A stretch of 64,000 bases of DNA from an uncultured Paracoccaceae bacterium (GTDB taxonomy: Bacteria > Pseudomonadota > Alphaproteobacteria > Rhodobacterales > Rhodobacteraceae): the NCBI GenBank assembly GCA_947495295.1, contig CANLYJ010000007.1, forward strand, positions 54,989 to 118,988, written 5' to 3'. The stretch's first letter is position 1. Each line of letters begins with the position of its first letter. The translations under genes were made by a program, and so were the position numbers. The notes under the pieces are model-generated. The model saw only the letters and a list, made by a program, of their open reading frames with translations, made no database searches and was not told the DNA's origin. Positions 8,199 through 18,472 of the stretch are shown here, piece by piece.

Positions 8199-9068
8199 TT
8201 AACTGCGCACCAGCTTTTCGTATTCCTCGGAGATGTCCCGCGTCATCGCGCCCACTTCGAAGTTATAGTCGCCGATCTGGCCCACCGGGGTAACCTCGGC
8301 CGCCGTGCCGGTGAGCCAGCATTGTTCGAACCCTTCCAGCTCTTCGGGCATGATGACCCGTTCGTGGACCTTGACCTGATGCTTTTCCAGCATCCCGATC
8401 ACCGTCTGCCGGGTCAGACCGTTCAGGAATGCATCGGGCTTGGGTGTGTGCACCTCGCCATCTTTGACAAAGAACATGTTCGCGCCCGTCGCCTCGGCCA
8501 CATAGCCGCGATAGTCGAACATCAGGGCATCCGAACATCCCTTTGCTTCGGCGGCGTGTTTGGACATGGTTGCAATCATGTAAAGGCCAGCAGCCTTGGC
8601 CTGTGACGGGGCGGTTTCGGGGCTGGGCCGTTTCCATTTGGCGATGTCGAGCCTGGCACCCTTCATCTTGGCATCACCATAATAATTGCCCCATTCCCAA
8701 ACGGCCACGGCCATGTGGACGGGGTTACGGGCCGATGCGACGCCCATATCTTCGCCCGCGCCACGCCAAGCGACGGCGCGCACGTAAGCGTCTGTCAGCC
8801 CATTGGCGTCGAGGGCAGCCCGTTTGGCAGCTTCGATTTCATCGACCGTGTAGGGGATGTCAAAATCGATCAGCTTACCCGATGTGATCAGCCGTTCGGA
8901 ATGCTCGCGGGACAGAAATATCTTGCCATCATAGCACCGCTCGCCTTCAAATACGGATGAGGCATAGTGCATGGCATGTGTCAGGATATGAACATTGGCG
9001 CTACGCCAATCGACCAACTGGCCGTCCATCCAGATTTTCCCATCCCTGTCATCATATCCGCCAGCCAT
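8199..9068 (-). CDS. ilvE: Branched-chain amino acid aminotransferase IlvE
   Basis: PLP-dependent class IV aminotransferase (289 residues) that interconverts leucine, isoleucine and valine with their 2-oxo acids. Visible features are the N-terminal KIWMDGQLVDW block, the HYASSVFEGERCY segment, and the class IV signature region EATGANMFFVKDG with LTRQTV. The start at MAGGYDDRDG has GGAGGCTCAG just upstream and matches family length. The track start at 9083 is a TTG 15 bases earlier. Confidence 0.95.
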   Translation of the reverse strand: MAGGYDDRDGKIWMDGQLVDWRSANVHILTHAMHYASSVFEGERCYDGKIFLSREHSERLITSGKLIDFDIPYTVDEIEAAKRAALDANGLTDAYVRAVAWRGAGEDMGVASARNPVHMAVAVWEWGNYYGDAKMKGARLDIAKWKRPSPETAPSQAKAAGLYMIATMSKHAAEAKGCSDALMFDYRGYVAEATGANMFFVKDGEVHTPKPDAFLNGLTRQTVIGMLEKHQVKVHERVIMPEELEGFEQCWLTGTAAEVTPVGQIGDYNFEVGAMTRDISEEYEKLVRS

Positions 9069-9215
9069 CTGAGCCTCCATCAAATTTGCATATGTTACGC
9101 GTATAGGTCCGTTTCGGACATAAAATTGCGCAATTTCTGCATTTCGCTAGCAGTTGATTCTTGGAATGTCAACAAAGCTGACGTATTGTGATCTGAAAGC
9201 AAGGGGAGAGGCCGT

Positions 9216-9722
9216 ATGCCGGAAGGATCATCGCCGCCGATGGGGCAAAGCCTGCTGTTTCTGACGGACGAACAGTTGCGCAAGGGCATCGAGGCGATGT
9301 TTTTCGCCTATCGTGGATTTACCGCCGACCCGGATCGTATTCTTGCCCAGAAATCCTATGGCCGCGCCCATCACCGGGCGATCCATTTCATCCATCGCAG
9401 CCCCGGCACGACCGTCAACAATCTGTTGTCGATACTTGGTGTGACAAAACAATCGCTTAATCGTGTGTTGCGTACCCTGATCGAAGACGGTTTGGTAGCA
9501 AGCACTGTTGGCACAAGGGACAAACGCGAACGCCATCTGCACTTGACGGAAACGGGTGCGGCGTTGGAACGTGAACTATCGGATGCCCAGCGCGACCGGA
9601 TGCGGGCTGCCTATCGGGCCGCCGGGCCTGCCGCTGTTGCTGGATTTCGGCAGGTGCTGGAGGCCATGATGGATGACGAAACCCGCCATCATTACGAGGC
9701 GATGAAGGAAAAGACCGAATGA
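9216..9722 (+). CDS. petP: MarR-family transcriptional regulator PetP
   Basis: 168-residue winged-helix protein. The HTH is visible around GTTVNNLLSILGVTKQSLNRVL, followed by the beta-wing with the DKRERHLHLT motif typical of MarR proteins. It overlaps the response regulator petR by an ATGA junction. This MarR plus OmpR-type pair matches the petP-petR operon of Rhodobacter. Its physiological signal is not known from sequence. It is divergent from ilvE with about 150 bases between. Confidence 0.88.
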   Translation: MPEGSSPPMGQSLLFLTDEQLRKGIEAMFFAYRGFTADPDRILAQKSYGRAHHRAIHFIHRSPGTTVNNLLSILGVTKQSLNRVLRTLIEDGLVASTVGTRDKRERHLHLTETGAALERELSDAQRDRMRAAYRAAGPAAVAGFRQVLEAMMDDETRHHYEAMKEKTE

Positions 9723-10420
9723 GCGTTGATGATGCCCACCTGTTGATTGTTGATGATGATGAACGTATCCGCGGATTGTTACAGAAGTTTCTGATGCGCA
9801 GCGGCTTTCTGGTCAGCACCGCCCGAGACGCCGCCCATGCCCGTCGCGTATTATCTGGTTTGGAATTCGATCTGATCGTGCTGGACGTAATGATGCCGGG
9901 CGAAGATGGCATGGCGCTTTGCCGTGATCTGCGCAAAACCATTACCACCCCAATCATGCTGCTGACCGCCAAGGGCGAAACCGATGACCGGATTACGGGT
10001 CTTGAGGCGGGGGCCGATGATTATCTGGCCAAACCATTTGAACCCAAGGAATTGTTGCTGCGCATCAACGCCATTCTGCGCCGCGTGCCATCGGCAGAAC
10101 CTGCCGTGGTCCTGCCCAAGGTCCTGAATATGGGCCCGGTCCGTTATGACATTGAGCGGGGCGAGATGTGGGAGGGCGAAAAGCTCGTCCGCCTGACCGC
10201 CACGGAAAGTCAGCTGATGCGCATCTTTTCCGGCTGCCCCGGCGAGGCCGTGACCCGCGCACGTCTGGTTGAAGAACTGAGCCGGTCCGGCGGCCAAACC
10301 CAGGAACGCGCCGTTGACGTGCAGATCACCCGGCTACGGCGCAAGATCGAGGTAGACCCCAAGCAACCGCGCTATCTTCAAACGGTGCGGGGCGCCGGGT
10401 ACATGCTGGCGCCAGAGTAG
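9719..10420 (+). CDS. petR: OmpR-family response regulator PetR
   Basis: 233-residue two-component response regulator. Receiver domain: acidic pocket VDDDER, phosphoacceptor Asp near residue 56 in VLDVMMPGEDG, the conserved Thr in LLTAKGE, and Lys in LAKPFEP. The C-terminal winged helix (about 130-233) ends with VDVQITRLRRKIE and RGAGYML. No histidine kinase gene is adjacent; its partner in this order is the MarR protein PetP, with which it is translationally coupled (ATGA). Confidence 0.93.
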   Translation: MSVDDAHLLIVDDDERIRGLLQKFLMRSGFLVSTARDAAHARRVLSGLEFDLIVLDVMMPGEDGMALCRDLRKTITTPIMLLTAKGETDDRITGLEAGADDYLAKPFEPKELLLRINAILRRVPSAEPAVVLPKVLNMGPVRYDIERGEMWEGEKLVRLTATESQLMRIFSGCPGEAVTRARLVEELSRSGGQTQERAVDVQITRLRRKIEVDPKQPRYLQTVRGAGYMLAPE

Positions 10421-10569
10421 GCAGTCCGTCATCTGGAACCACGCCTAACCCGTGACACGTTTGCAACGGCCTCATTGAACCTGCTTCAAACCCAAAAGCT
10501 GCCAAATTTCTGACTTGTTTCGTAATTAGCAACAATCACATCGGTTCATGATTGATTGGAGTGATTGCG

Positions 10570-11442
10570 TTGAGACGATTTGCCCGCCTTCCATCCCTCA
10601 TCGGCGCTTTGGCTGCATGTGCCTGTTTACTAGGCCCGCAAAGCGCCGTGGCCGAGGAAAAACCGATCTTTGATCAAGTGGTCGAGATTGTCGGGTCAGA
10701 GCGTGGTACCGTCCGTAAATGGATTTACGCACCCAAGGTGACTGTCATCCATGAGGGCGACCCACAACGCGATCAGATCAACAGCATTGTCGAAATGGTC
10801 AATGCCCGGATCCCCGACTTCCCGGGTGTTGGTGCCATCGAATTCTTTGATCTGTCCCAATATAATCGCCGCCTTGCAGGCAACACCCATTTCCGCATGC
10901 CTCGCGTCGAATTTGACGGGGTTGAAGGCAATATTGTCCGCGCCTTGTTCAAGGGCGAAGAAGAGGCGCAGAATATCGTGCTAACCGGCAGCATCTTCAT
11001 CTTTCTGACAGGTCTTGAGACGGGCATCACCCTTGGGGCACTGACGCAAAGCACCCAGTCGCTTAGCCGTCAGTTTGCCGAAGGTGCGCAGACGAAGTGT
11101 TATTTTCATCTGATGTCCAAGAATGACGAATTGCGCGCCGGGTTCATCTTTATCAACAACGAAGACGCGCATACGCCCATCGCTGAATGCCTATACGAGG
11201 AGTTCATGCAGACCCTTGGCCTGTTGAACGACTCGCGTGGGTCGTCGATCTTTACCTTTGACAATTCCGGCGACGTTCGTGCGGACCGCGCCCCTGATTT
11301 CCGCCTTTTGCAGGCGCTTTATGATCGTCAGGTCGCCGCTGGTGATGAGGCCGAAAAGGTCGCACAGCTTTATCTGGGGTTAGATGCCGCCTATCAACTT
11401 ACGGCTGCACCGTCAGATACTGCGGCGGCACCCGATCAGTAA
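10570..11442 (+). CDS. Secreted DUF2927-domain protein
   Basis: About 290 residues with a Sec signal peptide ending AVAEE. The body matches the DUF2927 family: paired Cys residues (TKCYFHLMS; AECLYEEFMQTLGLLND) and a conserved acidic segment resembling a metalloprotease-like fold. Function is uncharacterised; location is probably periplasmic. The start is ambiguous: TTG at 10570 has TTGGAGTGATTGCG upstream, whereas the track uses an earlier TTG (10552). Its 3' end overlaps convergent kptA by 44 bases. Confidence 0.8.
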   Translation: MRRFARLPSLIGALAACACLLGPQSAVAEEKPIFDQVVEIVGSERGTVRKWIYAPKVTVIHEGDPQRDQINSIVEMVNARIPDFPGVGAIEFFDLSQYNRRLAGNTHFRMPRVEFDGVEGNIVRALFKGEEEAQNIVLTGSIFIFLTGLETGITLGALTQSTQSLSRQFAEGAQTKCYFHLMSKNDELRAGFIFINNEDAHTPIAECLYEEFMQTLGLLNDSRGSSIFTFDNSGDVRADRAPDFRLLQALYDRQVAAGDEAEKVAQLYLGLDAAYQLTAAPSDTAAAPDQ

Positions 11443-11932
11443 GCCAGACACCGTTATCCGCCTGAAAGAACGCAAAACCGGCCTGGGACATGGTATGCGC
11501 ATCAACCTGCAATACCACAGGCTTGCCATGGCGCATCCCGACCTTGGTTGCGGTTGAGACATCCAATGACAGATGCACCTGTTGTCTGCGTCCCGGTTTC
11601 AGACCCTCATTCATGATTGCAGCGACGGATTTTTGCGCTGTGCCGTGAAACAGAGTTGCGGGTGGGTCTGCTGGGCTGAGCCCGAGGGCAATATCGACGG
11701 AATGTCCTTGCGCCGCCCTGATCCGGGTCTTGTCGTTGGACAGGGTGAACCGTTTCTTGTCTGAGGTGACAACGATCTGTTCCAATGTGGCCCGGTCGAT
11801 TTTCTGCCCGGCTTTGGCGCAGCCTGCCAACAGGTCGTCCACAGCCACCCAGCCTTGCGAATCCAGTGTTAGCCCCGCCTTTTCCGGTGCGTGTCTTAGG
11901 ACGAGGCTTAAAAACTTGCTTTGCTGTTTCAT
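11399..11932 (-). CDS. kptA: RNA 2'-phosphotransferase KptA/Tpt1
   Basis: 177-residue Tpt1 family enzyme, which transfers a 2'-phosphate from RNA to NAD+, giving ADP-ribose 1'',2''-cyclic phosphate. Characteristic motifs are in order: KFLSLVLRHAPEKAGL, QGWVAVDDLL, RIRAAQGHS, LFHGT and RQQVHLS, which hold the Arg-His-Arg-Arg active-site set. It follows rtcB by 18 bases with a good AAAAGGAACA site, so it is the last gene of the RNA-repair operon. Tpt1 normally cleans up yeast-type ligation junctions; RtcB leaves no 2'-phosphate, so its role here is unclear. rtcA is absent from the window. Confidence 0.93.
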   Translation of the reverse strand: MKQQSKFLSLVLRHAPEKAGLTLDSQGWVAVDDLLAGCAKAGQKIDRATLEQIVVTSDKKRFTLSNDKTRIRAAQGHSVDIALGLSPADPPATLFHGTAQKSVAAIMNEGLKPGRRQQVHLSLDVSTATKVGMRHGKPVVLQVDAHTMSQAGFAFFQADNGVWLTDRVPPQYLTVQP

Positions 11933-11950
11933 TGTTCCTTTTGGGGCGAC

Positions 11951-13363
11951 TTAGCGCCGCCCCTTCCTTTTCTTTTTGTCCATCCAGAATGGTGGAATGT
12001 CACCTGCCATCATGCAGCCATACGGATCGATGTAGTCTTCAATCTCGGCGAGGTTGAACTGGCCGATCTGGCGCACCACATTGGCCGCGTTTTTGTAGGA
12101 TGATGGCAACTCGGACGCATCGATCCCACCGGCGGGGAACCGGATATCAAGCCCCTTTGTCTCGGCCTCAAGCGCCTGTTGGGCTGTCATCTCGCCCAGC
12201 CGCCGCTTGTGTTCAGAGCGCGAGAAGTTGCGCCCCGCCCCATGTGGCGAGAAACCCAAGGCATGCTCTGCATCTTTCCCACGCACGACCAAAACGGGTT
12301 CGGACATGTTCAGCGGGATCAGTGTCAGACCCGTCGCATCAGCGGCATAATCACCCCAGGCCGGGGTCGCCCCCTTGCCGTGGTAATACAGATCGCCACG
12401 CCGGAAGACGAAGTTATGTTCATTCCAGAACCGGTCGCCCGGCTGCGCCTTTGACCCTTCAACGGTCGCCTGATGGATCGCGTTATGGTTCGCCTTCGTC
12501 CATTTACGGATAAGTTGCAGCGCCGCCCAATAGTCCTGACCGTCCTGCGTATCCGCCGGGATCCACGCGTTTTGCTTGAGCGTGTCTGGCGACAGCTTTC
12601 TGCGATGTCTTTCGGCTGCTTCCATGCCCAGCTTGTAAAGCACCGCCCCCGGCCCGCGAGAGCCGTGATGGGTGACAATCGCCGTCCGCCCGGTATTGCG
12701 GGACTTGCCCACAAACAGGAAATGGTTGCCGTCCCCCTGGGTGCCCAGATGCTCGACCGCCATGCGCAAAATCTTGGGATTGTTGAGGAACTTGTTTTCC
12801 CGGAACGCATCCATCAGATTTTGCGACATGGTGAACCGCTTGCCATTGGGCCGCCCGCCGGGGCCGAAATGCGTGACCTGTTCGGCAGCGTCCAACACCG
12901 CCTTTGGATCAGTCTCGCCCATATCGGTCATCATGACCGAACAACAGATATCCGCCGAATGCATGCCGGGATGGATCGCATTGCGGGCCGCAACAACACC
13001 GCCCACAGGGATGGTCCCCAACGGACCCGCCGGACAGGCATCGGGCATCACGGCCGCCGACACAACTGTCGGTGTGCGAATAACAGCCTTCATCGTCTCG
13101 CGCACATCGGCAAGGTTCTTGATCTCATCAGGATCGTCCGAGGCTTCGATATTGAAATGAAACGGCACATCGCCCGCCTTTTGCAACGGCAAAGTTGGCG
13201 GCGGTGGGGGTGGCTTCATACCCTCCAGCTTGGCCTTGATCTGGTCCATCTCATAGCCCGCAGCGGCAGCCGCCTGTGCGATTTCGAGGGCACGGCCAAA
13301 TTCCTTGCCGGGGGTATGGCCCCATTCCTTAAGCGTTTCACCGGTGATTTCTACTTGTGTCAT
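11951..13363 (-). CDS. rtcB: RNA-splicing ligase RtcB, divergent form
   Basis: 470-residue GTP/Mn-dependent ligase joining RNA 2',3'-cyclic-phosphate or 3'-phosphate ends to 5'-OH ends. Metal ligands equivalent to the canonical set are visible: Asp138/Cys141 in ADICCSV, His214 in GDGNHF, His233 in HHGSRG, His316 in EHNFV, and the guanylylated His374 in PHGAGRNFSR. Oddities: PDxHxGxG is replaced by PDACPAGPLG, the Glu of NHFxE is not kept (NHFLFV), and there is a proline run (PPPPPP) near residue 51. This marks a diverged branch. Its ATG lies three bases after the stop of the upstream small gene. It is co-oriented with rsr, the Y RNA array and kptA. Confidence 0.93.
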   Translation of the reverse strand: MTQVEITGETLKEWGHTPGKEFGRALEIAQAAAAAGYEMDQIKAKLEGMKPPPPPPTLPLQKAGDVPFHFNIEASDDPDEIKNLADVRETMKAVIRTPTVVSAAVMPDACPAGPLGTIPVGGVVAARNAIHPGMHSADICCSVMMTDMGETDPKAVLDAAEQVTHFGPGGRPNGKRFTMSQNLMDAFRENKFLNNPKILRMAVEHLGTQGDGNHFLFVGKSRNTGRTAIVTHHGSRGPGAVLYKLGMEAAERHRRKLSPDTLKQNAWIPADTQDGQDYWAALQLIRKWTKANHNAIHQATVEGSKAQPGDRFWNEHNFVFRRGDLYYHGKGATPAWGDYAADATGLTLIPLNMSEPVLVVRGKDAEHALGFSPHGAGRNFSRSEHKRRLGEMTAQQALEAETKGLDIRFPAGGIDASELPSSYKNAANVVRQIGQFNLAEIEDYIDPYGCMMAGDIPPFWMDKKKRKGRR

Positions 13364-13366
13364 TTT

Positions 13367-13783
13367 CTAGTCTTTCGTCACTTTCCAGTACGTCGCCTTC
13401 ATTACGGGCTCGAATAGGTGCCATTCATGGCAATCTGCGTGATGCCAACCGATATGTTTGCCGCAATGGCAGATACGATTGGGTTCACCACTGCCAGAAA
13501 TATCGCAACATCCGCTCAGCCGTTCCTGATGGGGTGTATAGCCGACCCAATCGCGCAGATCGTCCAAGTTGATCCACGCGTTGCTGCGCGGTTGCCAGCC
13601 TTTAGCGAAAGCCATGCGGATTTTTCGCACCTCACCTTCGATCAGCAAGTAACGACCTCGCGGTGTGACCGGTTTTTCAGGCGCAAAGACGCAGATTGCT
13701 TGCATTTCCGCCGCTGTTTTGATCGGAAAAATCGGAAAGGTCAGTTCTGTTTTACAGGTCGCGCATGTCAAAATCTGTTTCAT
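13367..13783 (-). CDS. Cys/His-rich small protein of the RNA-repair operon
   Basis: 138 residues, starting MKQILTCATCKTEL with GAGAGTGAATGAG upstream. An N-terminal CATC pair and a C-terminal ICHCGKHIGWHHADCHEW block suggest one or two zinc sites; no known family is recognised. The longer track ORF (to 13936) runs back into the structured RNA and is artefactual. The stop is three bases from the rtcB start, so the two are tightly coupled. It separates the Y RNA array from rtcB. A role in RNA binding or repair is inferred from position only. Confidence 0.72.
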   Translation of the reverse strand: MKQILTCATCKTELTFPIFPIKTAAEMQAICVFAPEKPVTPRGRYLLIEGEVRKIRMAFAKGWQPRSNAWINLDDLRDWVGYTPHQERLSGCCDISGSGEPNRICHCGKHIGWHHADCHEWHLFEPVMKATYWKVTKD

Positions 13784-13810
13784 CTCATTCACTCTCAAAT
13801 CTAACCAAGG

Positions 13811-13942
13811 CCGGAACAAGGTGTTTGCAGGATAATTTTCCGCCACCGGATTTCTCCGGGCTGGGGTCGAACCAGCACGGGCCTTTTGGCCCCGGCCCCC
13901 AGAGGGCCTGCGTCTACCTGTAATCCTGACAGGCATTTCCAG
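13811..13942 (-). ncRNA. Y RNA-like unit 8 with a permuted Leu/type II-like tRNA module
   Basis: Last unit of the array. The outer stem TCTGGAA pairs with TTCCGG(C), and the inner stem CAGGAT pairs with ATCCTG. Between them lie a long variable-arm-like hairpin (GGGGCC..AAAAGGCCC), a T arm GCTGGTTCGACCCCAGC, and an acceptor-like stem closed by a GNRA loop (CCGGA-GAAA-TCCGG). A D-arm-like start GTGGCGGAA follows. The order T arm, closed acceptor, D arm is a circular permutation of tRNA. It ends 27 bases before the small-protein start codon. Confidence 0.75.
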
Positions 13943-13950
13943 ATCATGGG

Positions 13951-14028
13951 TCCGGAGGACAAAGGTTTCGTGAGATGCCTTTCGGCGACCGTTTTAGAGC
14001 GATGTAATCCCACGGGCATTCCCCCGGA
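13951..14028 (-). ncRNA. Y RNA-like unit 7, no tRNA module
   Basis: Outer stem TCCGGGGGA pairs with TCCTCCGGA (one G-U), and inner stem GTGGGAT pairs with ATCTCAC (7 bp). The inner helix differs from the GGTGGAAC/GTTTCACC of most units on both strands, so pairing is preserved by compensating changes. The enclosed loop (about 30 bases) shows no T or D arm, making this a minimal unit. Confidence 0.7.
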
Positions 14029-14087
14029 TGTGTTTCCTTTCTGTCTTACAGAGGTTTGCAGGGCAGTGCCTGGACCTCAGGGTGGGT

Positions 14088-14151
14088 GCGAAGCGCCCTC
14101 CCCATGGGGGAGGTCCGGGCGCTGCCCGGCAATGCCGGGCGGGACATTCGC
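14088..14151 (-). ncRNA. Structured RNA between the tRNA-like gene and unit 7
   Basis: Minus-strand sequence folds as GCGAA..TTCGC enclosing a perfect hairpin GCCCGGC-ATT-GCCGGGC and a second arm GCGCCC..GGCGC capped by CTCCCC-CAT-GGGGAG, a probable three-way junction. It does not share the stem sequences of the Y units. The flanks (14029-14087 and 14152-14176) show nothing further. It could be a processing element, a terminator-like block or an independent RNA. Confidence 0.5.
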
Positions 14152-14176
14152 TCCACGCGCCACGCTCAAATTACCA

Positions 14177-14252
14177 TGGCTGGAAGAGCAGGGTTCGAAC
14201 CTGCGACCTGCGGTACCAAAAACCGTTGCTCTACCAGCTGAGCTACCTTCCA
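14177..14252 (-). tRNA. tRNA-Gln(UUG)-like gene inside the Y RNA array
   Basis: A normal-order, 76-base cloverleaf with encoded CCA. The acceptor TGGAAGG pairs with TCTTCCA (one G-U), with discriminator G. D arm is GCTC..GAGC; the anticodon arm ACGGT/ACCGC has one A-C mismatch at its base and loop TTTTGGT (anticodon TTG). T arm is GCAGGTTCGAACCCTGC. U1-A72, G73 and the anticodon are glutamine identity features, but the D/T body resembles other tRNAs. It begins five bases after unit 6. It may be a working accessory tRNA, a decoy or a precursor of the permuted modules. Confidence 0.75.
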
Positions 14253-14257
14253 ATGGC

Positions 14258-14319
14258 GGAGGACAAGGGTTCAGTGAGACGCTGACACTTTGGAGATGTA
14301 GTCCCACAGGCATTCCTCC
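14258..14319 (-). ncRNA. Y RNA-like unit 6, no tRNA module
   Basis: Minimal unit of 62 bases: outer stem GGAGGA pairs with TCCTCC and inner stem GTGGGAC pairs perfectly with GTCTCAC. The loop of about 20 bases (TACATCTCCAAAGTGTCAGC) has no tRNA arms. The inner stem deviates from other units on both strands while keeping complementarity. Directly followed by the tRNA-Gln-like gene. Confidence 0.7.
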
Positions 14320-14330
14320 TGCTTGATTTG

Positions 14331-14463
14331 CCCCGGCGACAAGTATCTGGCGAAACGTTACGCGCTCTATCCATCTGAGCTATCCCGTCATGGTAACGGG
14401 AGTGGGATTCGAACCCACGACCTCGACATTCGTAGTGTAGTTCCACCAAGGCATTCGCCAGGG
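14331..14463 (-). ncRNA. Y RNA-like unit 5 with permuted tRNA module
   Basis: Outer stem CCCTGGCGA/TCGCCGGGG (9 bp, one G-U) and inner stem GGTGGAAC/GTTTCGCC. Inside, in this order: TACG (pairs with CGTA at the far side, the anticodon-stem equivalent), T arm GTGGGTTCGAATCCCAC, acceptor-equivalent stem TCCCGT closed by TACCATG to ACGGGA, then D arm TAGCTCAGATGGATAGAGC. The acceptor ends are therefore fused into a hairpin and the molecule's ends leave at the anticodon side. This is the clearest permuted tRNA of the array. Confidence 0.82.
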
Positions 14464-14475
14464 CTGTTATTCGGG

Positions 14476-14595
14476 TCCGGCAACAAAGTGGGGCGAAACA
14501 TGTATACTGCTCTACCAACTGAGCTACCCGGTGAAGTGACCTCCGGGGCGGGGCTCGAACCCGCGACCAATGTAGTTCCACCAGCATTTGCCGGA
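14476..14595 (-). ncRNA. Y RNA-like unit 4 with permuted tRNA module
   Basis: Outer stem TCCGGCAA/TTGCCGGA (8 bp) and inner stem GGTGGAAC/GTTTCGCC. The enclosed module has T arm GCGGGTTCGAGCCCCGC, an acceptor-equivalent stem CCCGG/CCGGG closed by AGGTCACTTCA, and D arm TAGCTCAGTTGGTAGAGCA, in permuted order. Same architecture as unit 5 with different stem sequences. Confidence 0.8.
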
Positions 14596-14604
14596 ATGTT
14601 CGGG

Positions 14605-14751
14605 TCTGGCGACAAAGGGAAAGAAACGTTTTGGGGCCCCGCCCCCATTTCCGCAGAAATGGTTTTCCGTCTGGGCGTCTTCGCTAGAGGGGAGTTGAAC
14701 CCTCGGGTGATCCCGGTTTGGTGCGATGTAGTTCCTTTGGCATTCGCCAGA
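14605..14751 (-). ncRNA. Y RNA-like unit 3 with a degenerate module
   Basis: Outer stem TCTGGCGA/TCGCCAGA (8 bp) and inner stem AAAGGAAC/GTTTCTTT. The AAA/TTT change occurs on both strands and is the strongest single covariation in the array. Inside are a T-arm-like hairpin GAGGGTTCAACTCCCCTC, a short closed stem GCG-AAGA-CGC, and an extra hairpin CCATTTC-TGCG-GAAATGG instead of a recognisable D arm. Probably a decayed or repurposed tRNA module. Confidence 0.72.
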
Positions 14752-14760
14752 ATATCTGGT

Positions 14761-14898
14761 CTTGGCAACAAGGTTTTGATGAAACATTGGGGAGGTGCTC
14801 TTCCAACTGAGCTACATCGCTCCGGTTGTCCCGGCTGTGATGGCGGGGTTCGAACCCGCGACATCATCCGTGATGTAGTTCCACCGGCATTTGCCAAG
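14761..14898 (-). ncRNA. Y RNA-like unit 2 with permuted tRNA module
   Basis: Outer stem CTTGGCAA/TTGCCAAG (8 bp) and inner stem GGTGGAAC/GTTTCATC. The module runs GGATG (anticodon-stem 3' strand, pairs with CCTCC except one base), T arm GCGGGTTCGAACCCCGC, and acceptor-equivalent CATCAC..GCGATG extended by CCGG-GACAA-CCGG. D arm TAGCTCAGTTGGAAGAGCA and the CCTCC strand follow. The anticodon stem resembles valine-type tRNAs, but no anticodon is reconstituted. Confidence 0.8.
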
Positions 14899-14914
14899 GT
14901 GTTTGTTTGTCGGT

Positions 14915-15010
14915 CCCGGCGACAATCGGGGGTGAAACATCAACATGCGCGTATTCTGCCAGCAAAACCGCCATCACGTTCCCTATGTAGTTCCACCAGC
15001 ATTCGCCGGG
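14915..15010 (-). ncRNA. Y RNA-like unit 1, divergent module
   Basis: Outer stem CCCGGCGA/TCGCCGGG (8 bp perfect) and inner stem GGTGGAAC/GTTTCACC (8 bp, one G-U). The roughly 50-base insert (GATGGCGG..GCTGGCAGAATACGCGC) looks like a type II tRNA D-arm half without a T arm. It may be a partial module. It is the first full unit after rsr. Confidence 0.7.
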
Positions 15011-15120
15011 TTTCATTCCTTTCATTTCAATCGGCGTCCTACGATCATTTGGACGACAAAGCCGTTTCGCCAAGGCGTGACGTGACCCACGCATTTCCGA
15101 GAGTTACAATTCTTTTGTGT
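15011..15120 (-). ncRNA. Leader of the Y RNA array, possible vestigial unit
   Basis: About 110 bases between the rsr 3' hairpin and unit 1. It holds small hairpins GCGTG-GGTCACGT-CACGC and CGTCC-AAATGATCGTA-GGACG. It also has fragments resembling the repeating spacer (CGAAACGGCTTTGTCG; compare GTTTCGCC..TTTGTCGCC). No complete outer/inner stem pair was found, so it could be a decayed unit or a leader. Confidence 0.35.
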
Positions 15121-15144
15121 GGGTCAGGCGTTGCCGCCTGACCC
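15121..15144 (-). terminator. Strong hairpin immediately after rsr
   Basis: GGGTCAGGCG-GCAA-CGCCTGACCC: a perfect 10 bp stem with a GCAA tetraloop, four bases after the rsr stop. There is no T run on the minus strand (ACACAAAAG follows), so it is more likely an attenuator, processing or 3'-end-stabilising hairpin separating the rsr mRNA from the Y RNA array than a classic terminator. Confidence 0.6.
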
Positions 15145-15148
15145 GTTC

Positions 15149-16705
15149 TTAAATGTCGGTTGCCTCGATTTGGCCGACCCAGTGATCTGGTCCCATCTCG
15201 CCTGCCGCGAAGGCTGCGATCTGGTCAAAGACCGTGTCCGAGAACCCGCCAATGTTCAGAACATCGTCGCGTTCTTTCGCCTGGGTCGTCCCGTATGGGG
15301 CGATGTCGATGCAGACCAGTTTGGCCTTTGGGTTCCGCCTTTTCAGCTTCTCCCACGCTTGCATCATAACCGTCCCGGCGTTGCCGTACTGGTTATGCGC
15401 CCAGGACTGGTTGTCCGAGACGATGATCACCAGATCCGGGGCACGCCCCTTGGCCAGCAACCAATCCAGCGGTGCCGCGCAATTGGTCCCGCCGCCCCAC
15501 TGATCCGCCAAACGTGCTGCGTTTGTCAGGATCGTGTCGCGTGGTTCCAGCCGCACATCGCGCACCTTCACCTCGAACGGCAGGACCGTCGCGGATGGGT
15601 TACGCCGCAGCACAGCCGCAGAGACAAGCCCCGCCACATCCACGAACCGCGTCGCTGTGGTGGCCCCCTTACGGTAGCCTGTTACAGCGCCGGACATGGA
15701 CCCGGATACATCCGGGGCAACCACAACCTGACCGCGCAGCTTTGGCACGTTGCGCACCGAAAGCTCCATCGCGTCATGCAATGCGTCCCTGATCTCGGCC
15801 GGCATGTCCGAAGACATGGCCTGATAGGCCGTCATCAGCTGATACGGGAACACCCGTGCCTTTGCGATCAGCGCCGGATCACGCAAACGATCCGCAATCA
15901 TGCACCGCATTTTCGGCAGGGCCAGAACCCCGTGCCGCAGGAACGTGTTCAGGTTCATACGGGTCATCTGCCAAGATGCGTTCTCAGCAATCTTTGCCCA
16001 CTGTTTCGTAGACAATTCAAGCTGCGTCAGCATCTGGAACGGAACGTTTGGCACGCGGCCACGGCCCGTTTTCTTGAACCGCAGGAAATCCTGCACATTA
16101 TCCGGCAGCAATGCGACGTCACATGGCTTCCTGATGATCCACGCAAACAGCGCGTCTCGCGCCTTCGAGGAAGGCTTCGGGTGGACCATCTTGATCACAT
16201 CCGCCAGCGACGGGTCGTTACCCACATTCGCCTGCAGGATCGCCCGGTCGGACGCCTCATTCAGCCAATTGGCAACCAGCCGCTTTGGCGCAGAGCCAAG
16301 CGATTTCCGCCCCGTCTGCCCCGACCGCATGATCTGCACAAAGGTGCGCAGCATCTTGCCGTTATCCACAACACGCCCAACGACGCGCTGGAACAGGATC
16401 GGGTCACGGGCCGACAGAACCGCCAGCAACAGGGCGGGCATATCTTTCATATGGCCCTCTTGCCGGGTGTAGACCGCCGCCTTTGCAAGAAAGGACGGAT
16501 CAACCTTTTGCGCCAATTCCAGCGTGCGGGACAGTTCCTGCATCGGGTCCTGGTAGAATGTCTGCCCAAACGTGCCGGTCATCGCCAGCTGCGCCAAGGC
16601 ATGCGCATCGGAATAGGTATAGGCCGGTGCCCCCGCCAGATTCGTAGCAGAAGCTGCCGGAAGCAACCGGCCTTTCATCGATGCAAACACAGATTTGTTT
16701 GCCAT
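15149..16705 (-). CDS. rsr: Rsr, bacterial Ro60 orthologue (TROVE domain protein)
   Basis: 518-residue ring-shaped RNA-binding protein. The HEAT-like TROVE domain covers roughly residues 15-320. A von Willebrand A domain follows, with the MIDAS motif DVSGSMSG near 332 and a later IIVSDNQSW strand. Ro60/Rsr proteins bind Y RNAs on their outer surface and RNA ends in the central hole; in Deinococcus a Y RNA tethers Rsr to PNPase. The start ATG has AAGGACGAGAGTGAA upstream. It is the first gene of the RNA-repair operon and lies directly before the Y RNA array, its expected ligand. Confidence 0.95.
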   Translation of the reverse strand: MANKSVFASMKGRLLPAASATNLAGAPAYTYSDAHALAQLAMTGTFGQTFYQDPMQELSRTLELAQKVDPSFLAKAAVYTRQEGHMKDMPALLLAVLSARDPILFQRVVGRVVDNGKMLRTFVQIMRSGQTGRKSLGSAPKRLVANWLNEASDRAILQANVGNDPSLADVIKMVHPKPSSKARDALFAWIIRKPCDVALLPDNVQDFLRFKKTGRGRVPNVPFQMLTQLELSTKQWAKIAENASWQMTRMNLNTFLRHGVLALPKMRCMIADRLRDPALIAKARVFPYQLMTAYQAMSSDMPAEIRDALHDAMELSVRNVPKLRGQVVVAPDVSGSMSGAVTGYRKGATTATRFVDVAGLVSAAVLRRNPSATVLPFEVKVRDVRLEPRDTILTNAARLADQWGGGTNCAAPLDWLLAKGRAPDLVIIVSDNQSWAHNQYGNAGTVMMQAWEKLKRRNPKAKLVCIDIAPYGTTQAKERDDVLNIGGFSDTVFDQIAAFAAGEMGPDHWVGQIEATDI

Positions 16706-16850
16706 TTCACTCTCGTCCTTCTTCGTTTCAGTGATGCTGTTTTCGTGGATTTTGAGGGTTGGACGAAGAAAAATCGCATTCGCTTTAAGTCGCTGTTTTT
16801 ATTAGAGTATTTTTGGCAAAACGATAATGACTACAGAATTTACGATTTAC

Positions 16851-16870
16851 ACGGATATTACTTTATCCGT
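16851..16870. promoter_or_regulatory. Inverted repeat in the rsr-rtcR intergenic region
   Basis: ACGGATA-TTACTT-TATCCGT is a perfect 7 bp inverted repeat with a 6-base spacer, ending just upstream of rtcR in the 177-base divergent region. It is a candidate operator for RtcR or another regulator. I found no GG-N10-GC (-24/-12) sigma-54 element on the rsr side. Confidence 0.5.
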
Positions 16871-16882
16871 ATGGATAATCTT

Positions 16883-18472
16883 ATGAAGAAGAATGTTGTC
16901 ATCGGCTTTCTGGGGACGAATCTGGACGCGGGCAAGCGCCGCCGCTGGCGTCCCTCTGTGCAGATCAATGATCATCCTGATTTTCCTATTACGCGACTGG
17001 AATTGCTGCATGATCGGCGCTGGACGGGGCTTGCCACGAAAATCAAAGGCGAGGTTGAACGCGCCCATCCCGAAACCGAGGTCCTGCTGCACGAGGTCAA
17101 CGTCCACGACCCGTGGGATTTTGAGGAGATGTATGGCGCGATGTTCGATTTCGCCCGTGATTATGGTTTTGATGATGAGCGGGAGGAATACCACGTTCAT
17201 CTGACCACCGGCACACATGTTGCGCAAATCTGCTGGTTCCTGCTAACCGAGGCGCGCCATATCCCGGCCAAACTGGTTCAGACCGGCCCGCCGCGCGGTG
17301 AGGATACCGGCCCCGGCACCTTGCAGATCGTTGATCTTGATCTGTCGCGCTACAATGCCCTGCAACAACGGTTTGATCTGGTTTCCAAGGAATATAACGC
17401 CCTGTTGAAGGGCGGGATCGACACCAAGAACGCAGCCTTTAACGCGATGATTGACCGGATGGAGGTCGTGACCTCCAATTCAGACGCGCCGCTGTTGTTG
17501 ATAGGGCCGACCGGGACGGGGAAATCGGATCTTGCCGCGCGCTTGTATGAATTGAAGCTGCAACGCCGTCGCATCAAGGGCCGTTTGGTCCATGTGAATT
17601 GTTCGACGCTGAAGGGCGAGCGGGCCATGTCGACCCTATTTGGCCACCGCAGACAATCTATCCGTGGCGCAGGGTCCGACCGGCGCGGCCTGCTGCAAGA
17701 GGCTGATGGCGGTGTCCTGTTTCTGGACGAGATTGACGAGCTGGGTCTGGATGAACAGGCGATGATCCTGCACGCGGTTGAGACGGGCAAATACCTGCCA
17801 CTTGGGTCGGATTACGAGGTGACCAGCCGGTTTCATCTGATCGCGGGGGCGGGGCGTGATCTGGCGGCTTTGGTGGCCAAGGGCCAGTTTCGCGCCGACC
17901 TGTTTGCCCGGCTGAACCTATGGACATTCCACCTACCCGCTTTGCGTGACCGACCCGAGGATATCGACCCGAATATCGCCTATGAACTGGCACGGGTAGA
18001 AAAACTGTTGGGGCAACGGCTCAGCTTTAATGCCGATGCATTCACCCGCTATCAACGTTTTGCCACAGATCCGGGCACTGATTGGTCAGGCAATTTTCGT
18101 GACCTGTCCGCATCTGTCCAACGCATGTGTACCCTTGCCCCGCGGGGACGGATTACATTGGCTATGGTCGAGGATGAAATTGCCACGTTGCGCAGCACAT
18201 GGCGCGACGCGACCCGCGACCCGGATTTGCAGCTATTGCAGGCGCATCTGGGTGCGGCTGCACAGGACATCGACATCTTTGATCGGGTCCAATTGGCCGC
18301 TGTTATTCGGATTTGCCAGAAAAGCGCGAGCCTGAGCGCTGCGGGTCGGACGTTATTCGCGGCTTCGCGCGCGGCCAGGGCCAGCCGGAACGATGCCGAC
18401 CGGCTGCGCAAGTATCTGGATAAATTCGGTCTTGATTGGGCGCAATGTCAGGCAGATGCCGCTTCAGGGTAG
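16883..18472 (+). CDS. rtcR: RtcR-type CARF-AAA+ regulator lacking the GAFTGA motif
   Basis: About 529 residues from MKKNVVIGFLGT, aligning with the RtcR N terminus; the track ORF (15119) is a run-through across rsr. The CARF domain (about 1-175, HLTTGTHVAQICWFL) senses RNA, reported as tRNA halves or cyclic-phosphate ends in Salmonella. The AAA+ domain has Walker A GPTGTGKS (208-215) and Walker B GVLFLDEI. The C-terminal domain keeps SLSAAGR and NDADRLRKYL. Odd: where E. coli has LFGHVKGAFTGA this protein reads LFGHRRQSIRGA, so the sigma-54 contact loop is lost. ATG 16871 is an alternative start. Divergent from rsr. Confidence 0.9.
   Translation: MKKNVVIGFLGTNLDAGKRRRWRPSVQINDHPDFPITRLELLHDRRWTGLATKIKGEVERAHPETEVLLHEVNVHDPWDFEEMYGAMFDFARDYGFDDEREEYHVHLTTGTHVAQICWFLLTEARHIPAKLVQTGPPRGEDTGPGTLQIVDLDLSRYNALQQRFDLVSKEYNALLKGGIDTKNAAFNAMIDRMEVVTSNSDAPLLLIGPTGTGKSDLAARLYELKLQRRRIKGRLVHVNCSTLKGERAMSTLFGHRRQSIRGAGSDRRGLLQEADGGVLFLDEIDELGLDEQAMILHAVETGKYLPLGSDYEVTSRFHLIAGAGRDLAALVAKGQFRADLFARLNLWTFHLPALRDRPEDIDPNIAYELARVEKLLGQRLSFNADAFTRYQRFATDPGTDWSGNFRDLSASVQRMCTLAPRGRITLAMVEDEIATLRSTWRDATRDPDLQLLQAHLGAAAQDIDIFDRVQLAAVIRICQKSASLSAAGRTLFAASRAARASRNDADRLRKYLDKFGLDWAQCQADAASG

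Follow-up and report, generated by a model that had tools for sequence, protein, structure and literature searches.

The window, a stretch of 64,000 nucleotides from an uncultured Paracoccaceae bacterium, contains an rtcR gene and, divergently oriented on the minus strand, an RNA repair operon consisting of rsr, a Y RNA-like array and the RNA ligase gene rtcB (Table 1). The rtcR reading frame has an alternative upstream ATG at 16871 but we annotate the start used in Table 1 (MKKN...), which is the one kept in relatives. The encoded protein combines a CARF-type RtcR domain with an AAA+ domain and reaches 707 bits against the curated NCBI RtcR equivalog model NF038308, for which the cut-off is 650. 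Thus, both the domain content by which RtcR proteins are recognised and the divergent rtcB operon that characterises RtcR orthologues are present.

Table 1 Features of rtcR, its intergenic region and the divergent operon in the window.
Feature	Position	Strand	Evidence or remark
rtcR coding sequence	16883..18472	+	PF06956 8.8e-72, PF00158 2e-38, NF038308 above cut-off
CARF-type sensor domain PF06956	16886..17416	+	residues 6-182, frame from 16871
AAA+ domain PF00158 (Sigma54_activat)	17426..17926	+	residues 186-352, frame from 16871
Walker A GPTGTGKS	17504..17527	+	K and S/T kept in 101/101 RtcR
L1 loop hexamer QSIRGA, replacing GAFTGA	17654..17671	+	read from translation
Walker B VLFLDEI, catalytic glutamate present	17714..17734	+	read from translation
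C-terminal region, presumed helix-turn-helix	18278..18445 (approximate)	+	conserved in both groups
RtcR operator (upstream activating sequence)	16838..16878	-	consensus common to both groups
Operator palindrome TTATCCATACGGATAA	16863-16878	-	sole exact copy in genome
IHF-like site AAAAACAGCGACTTA	16786..16800	-	weak match to WATCAANNNNTTR, conserved position
T-block GATTTTTCTTCGTCC, upstream part of presumed replacement core promoter	16761..16775	-	conserved
Block CGAAAACAGCATCAC, downstream part of presumed replacement core promoter	16731..16745	-	conserved
rsr (Ro60-like), first gene of divergent operon	15149..16705	-	vWA_Ro60 3e-16, TROVE 1e-7; NF041674 below its cut-off
Y RNA (YrlA)-like array, about eight genes	13800..15009	-	Rfam YrlA matches (one above gathering score), 5' box repeats
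tRNA-Gln within Y RNA-like array	14177-14252	-	tRNA search
rtcB RNA ligase gene	11951..13363	-	PF01139 1.9e-34

Some of the Y RNA-like genes between rsr and rtcB have a tRNA-like part and others do not, and a simple pattern count found up to eight 5' boxes in relatives (L034, L043, L054). Between the array and rtcB, a small open reading frame (13370-13936, minus strand) matched nothing in Pfam or NCBIfam. Because a Y RNA-like copy overlaps its 5' part, its true start probably lies near 13804 or downstream. Genes for tRNA-Gln(UUG), often tRNA-Asn(GUU), and tRNA-Pro recur inside the operon across the clade described below (L032-L034, L037, L040-L043, L054 and L073). The tRNA-Gln of the window operon is 74% identical to a second, ordinary host tRNA-Gln (G000:C1:148537-148611), and the operon tRNAs may be spares that are made when cellular tRNAs are cut.

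The original prediction held that this RtcR has lost the sigma-54 contact loop while Walker A, Walker B and the CARF domain are intact, and the translation agrees on each point. The position of GAFTGA is occupied by QSIRGA, which lies within the L1 loop LFGHRRQSIRGAGSDR (translated stretch LFGHRRQSIRGA). Both Walker motifs and the CARF domain are present, as are both arginine fingers, the sensor II arginine and the C-terminal region, which we take, from what is general among bEBPs, to be a DNA-binding helix-turn-helix. A sequencing error was ruled out as the source of QSIRGA: the hexamer recurs in an RtcR of 98% identity from a second genome, and related loops occur in the clade. The solved structures nearest to the AAA+ domain in a sequence search were NtrC1, FleQ and PspF. 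The window protein therefore lacks the L1 motif of sigma-54-dependent bEBPs and matches the R. capsulatus NtrC type, an AAA+ protein with intact nucleotide-binding motifs and no GAFTGA. Judging from characterised RtcR proteins, its signal is likely to be RNA damage (PMC7790460, PMC9650030).

The host assembly comprises 21 contigs totalling 4.27 Mb and is rated 100% complete. It also lacks the sigma factor expected of a sigma-54-dependent bEBP: it gave no match to the rpoN domains Sigma54_DBD or Sigma54_CBD (PF04552, PF04963), while four control genomes matched. Among the other bEBP-like host proteins, those that were read (L085, L086, L088 and L089/L090) are likewise GAFTGA-less, mostly with the loop deleted. 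By type they were described as NtrX-like, two as DctD-like by appearance and one as NtrC-like (L089), the NtrX-like label also having been given to L085, L086 and L088 as a set. For a further 426-aa frame, behind L091/L092, the profile match skips the loop region. The genome encodes an IHF-beta-like protein and has three more HU/IHF family matches.

We collected RtcR proteins from 394 genomes of the family, 385 of the class, 398 of the phylum and named GTDB contigs; removal of duplicates and of two distant RtcR-like proteins left 101. GAFTGA-type loops are found in 42 of these (41 GAFTGA, one GAYTGA). The orthologue alignment suggested with the original prediction shows that GAFTGA-less loops recur, in Rhodobacterales and elsewhere: the remaining 59 homologues carry 40 different hexamers or deletions. 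In a tree of all 101 proteins, calculated with the loop columns left out, a single branch separates the 59 from all the others (SH-aLRT 99), and the same branch was recovered on a 64-row subset (UFBoot/SH-aLRT 100/99). The GAFTGA-less proteins are all alphaproteobacterial and come from Rhodobacterales, Roseibium/Labrenzia, Hoeflea, Cohaesibacter, Methyloligella, Maricaulis and two more alphaproteobacterial families. Every non-alphaproteobacterial RtcR in the tree keeps the motif, as do several within the Alphaproteobacteria. Since GAFTGA is general among sigma-54 activators (PMC3162934), its loss in RtcR is the derived state. One genome from the same family as the host (L004, G367) has a GAFTGA-type RtcR together with rpoN; the placement of this RtcR among other GAFTGA-type proteins points to horizontal transfer.

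The promoter has changed along with the loop. We scanned the operons of all 101 RtcR proteins with a hand-made -24/-12 matrix, using as threshold a score of 12.2, the 99th percentile of shuffles. All 42 GAFTGA-type loci have their highest-scoring operon-strand site at a distance of 149-210 nt from the rtcR N-terminus; the median score is 15.5, and 36 of the 42 reach the threshold. At this fixed place none of the 59 GAFTGA-less operons has a -24/-12 site; their best sites are scattered, with a median of 5.4 and a maximum of 10.9 (Mann-Whitney p = 3e-17 between the groups, a description rather than a test because the sequences are related and not independent). The absence of a GG-N10-GC promoter upstream of rsr, noted in the original prediction, holds for the window, where no site on the operon strand exceeds 8.6 in the approximately 8 kb from 9001 to 16940. 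The possibility that the window operon has a sigma-54 promoter at some other place was rejected on the same scan, which showed nothing strong; the flanks of other named loci contain scattered single matches. Chance is excluded as an explanation because the altered loop, the absent promoter and a kept operator recur together across the 59 homologues.

The distribution of rpoN bears on the order of these losses. Of the 42 GAFTGA-type genomes, 41 have the gene and one, a metagenome bin of 2.6 Mb, does not; the 59 GAFTGA-less genomes divide into 26 with rpoN and 33 without it (some genomes are incomplete). Genomes on deep GAFTGA-less branches (Maricaulis, G483, G730) retain rpoN, and so do those of the Roseibium-Hoeflea group. 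The change of promoter and loop thus preceded the loss of rpoN, which many Rhodobacteraceae underwent, and rpoN loss is ruled out as the cause of loop loss. Some lineages have loops near the consensus (GAMTGA, GAITGA, GAFAGA, GAFSGA) and promoters that are already replaced, suggesting that the promoter had switched before the loop decayed. These near-consensus loops and the 26 rpoN-containing genomes could also be taken to mean that the altered loop still serves sigma-54 where rpoN is present, at a degenerate -24/-12 promoter missed by the matrix. However, the loci with near-consensus loops are among the 59 that have no GG-N10-GC at the expected place, alteration of the motif's central F and T mostly abolishes activity (PMC3162934), and the explanation does not apply to the rpoN-less genome of the window; we give it very little credence.

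Elements upstream of the core promoter have been kept. The operator adjoins the rtcR start, just upstream of the start codon, and its consensus, TATCCa....GATAA followed by a second half-site pair, is identical in GAFTGA-type and GAFTGA-less loci. A search of the host genome for exact TTATCCNNNNGGATAA returned only the window palindrome, and RtcR therefore seems to serve this locus alone. When one mismatch to the IHF-like WATCAANNNNTTR is allowed, 34 of 42 GAFTGA-type operons have such a site (15% of shuffles), as do 36 of 59 GAFTGA-less operons (23% of shuffles). Its spacing is near-constant, and in the GAFTGA-less operons it sits mostly at 105-110 nt. A T-block (TTTTTCTTCGG-like) common to the GAFTGA-less operons occupies the former place of the -24/-12 site. 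In most members it lies 22-23 nt past the CA of the IHF-like site, and approximately 17 nt farther on, just ahead of the rsr ribosome site, a block resembling CAAAACATCCTCAC follows. These blocks were obtained from anchored alignments, EM motif discovery having locked onto the conserved rsr start region. From their position and conservation, the two blocks may constitute the replacement core promoter. They resemble neither a -24/-12 element nor a good TTGACA/TATAAT pair, and a sigma-70 consensus scan gave one near-chance match. Both groups keep the operator and the IHF-like site, and the core promoter alone differs.

The protein itself remains under constraint outside the loop. Mean entropy of the L1 hexamer is 0.03 bits in the GAFTGA-type group versus 2.12 bits in the GAFTGA-less group, while that of the AAA+ domain is 0.95 in both, and the CARF domain and C-terminal region are less variable in the GAFTGA-less group than in the GAFTGA-type group. 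The arginine fingers and sensor II are invariant, and the GAFTGA-less reading frames are full-length throughout. The catalytic glutamate of Walker B, kept in the window protein, is replaced in 9 of 59 GAFTGA-less and 0 of 42 GAFTGA-type proteins (seven D, one Q and one G; L014, L015, L016, L017, L018, L026, L007, L020, L071). ATP hydrolysis may therefore be weak or dispensable in some GAFTGA-less lineages, which would be in keeping with R. capsulatus NtrC, for which ATP binding, and not its hydrolysis, is reported to be required (PMC10274813). Free drift of the L1 sequences and the lost glutamates would also be expected if RtcR were a decaying remnant after rpoN loss, with the operon expressed without it. 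This we consider extremely improbable: the frames are intact, the CARF, AAA+ and C-terminal regions are conserved as well as in the GAFTGA-type group or better, the operator is kept, and on the tree the loop was lost earlier than rpoN.

A GAFTGA-less RtcR could instead have turned into a repressor or anti-repressor that shapes both divergent units from the operator without remodelling polymerase, comparable to TyrR at some promoters. The position of the operator just upstream of the rtcR start codon makes autoregulation likely, GAFTGA loss is known among repressing bEBPs such as TyrR (PMC3162934), and the nine lost Walker B glutamates would be compatible with such a role. Against this stand the invariant arginine fingers and sensor II, which a simple repressor would not need, and the preserved order and spacing of operator, IHF-like site and promoter, in which the operator stands approximately 100 bp from the presumed rsr core promoter. 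We regard this explanation as unlikely.

We favor, with fair confidence, a reading in which the window protein is a genuine RtcR orthologue from a clade where a single rewiring event moved the output from sigma-54 to another holoenzyme, most likely of the sigma-70 type, and in which it activates the operon from a distance through the operator and IHF. With loop and promoter lost and the sensor, the ATP-binding parts and the operator kept, the same operon must be driven differently, and distant activation is favored because the spacing is constant and the order of operator, IHF-like site and promoter is preserved. Control independent of sigma-54, as originally predicted, is supported by the rpoN-less host, by the clade-wide joint loss of -24/-12 promoter and GAFTGA, and by the operator and IHF-like site that stand beside a replaced core promoter. 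In the proposed mechanism the CARF sensor would still gate the ATP-binding AAA+ ring, the ring would bind its dedicated operator next to the rtcR start codon, and the DNA from there to the promoter would be bent by IHF. The ring would then contact the holoenzyme on the replacement promoter, with no link between GAFTGA and sigma-54 involved, and the rsr - Y RNA - rtcB operon would be activated from a distance in the manner of R. capsulatus NtrC. We infer both the role of RtcR as activator rather than repressor and the use of IHF at the rsr promoter; by analogy with NtrC, the holoenzyme is probably of the sigma-70 type. A more specific version, in which the altered L1 loop itself, with ATP, drives a non-sigma-54 holoenzyme at an unusual core promoter (T5CTTCGG-like, approximately 17 nt, CAAAACA-like), is speculative and rather doubtful; if true, a swap of the output elements alone would have re-established enhancer-dependent activation at a new promoter.

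RtcR has been treated as a typical sigma-54 activator, and in one clade its output has been exchanged entirely: the promoter, the loop and, in many members, the sigma factor gene are lost, while the sensor, the operator and a probable DNA bend remain. The clade offers a testable case of an enhancer-dependent circuit escaping sigma-54 with intermediate forms still alive. Induction of RNA repair in marine roseobacters cannot be deduced from E. coli, and the annotation 'sigma-54-dependent' would be wrong for the entire GAFTGA-less clade.

GAFTGA loss in bEBPs is already known. We found no report of it in RtcR, or of a joint loss of promoter and loop, in the literature searched, from which most subscription papers were missing. 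The RtcR proteins of E. coli and Salmonella have the same CARF sensor, AAA+ ring, C-terminal DNA-binding region and divergent rtcB operon as the window, and the Salmonella operon likewise contains rsr and Y RNA genes; these proteins are sigma-54-dependent, whereas GAFTGA, the -24/-12 promoter and rpoN are all absent here (PMC9650030, PMC7790460, PMC9879122). Among bEBP homologues, HupR, TyrR, DhaR and VpsR have likewise lost GAFTGA and their dependence on sigma-54 (PMC3162934, PMC10274813), but they have other sensors and regulons and represent unrelated loss events; HupR, TyrR and VpsR, together with NtrC, serve as precedents for the mechanism proposed here. A parallel is provided by NtrC of R. 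capsulatus and Caulobacter, bEBPs that also lack GAFTGA and are reported to act at sigma-70 promoters in a manner that needs ATP binding (PMC10274813 and works cited there). Those proteins are nitrogen response regulators in which the loop is deleted, whereas RtcR keeps the length of the loop but not its sequence and, unlike them, combines a CARF sensor with a dedicated operon.
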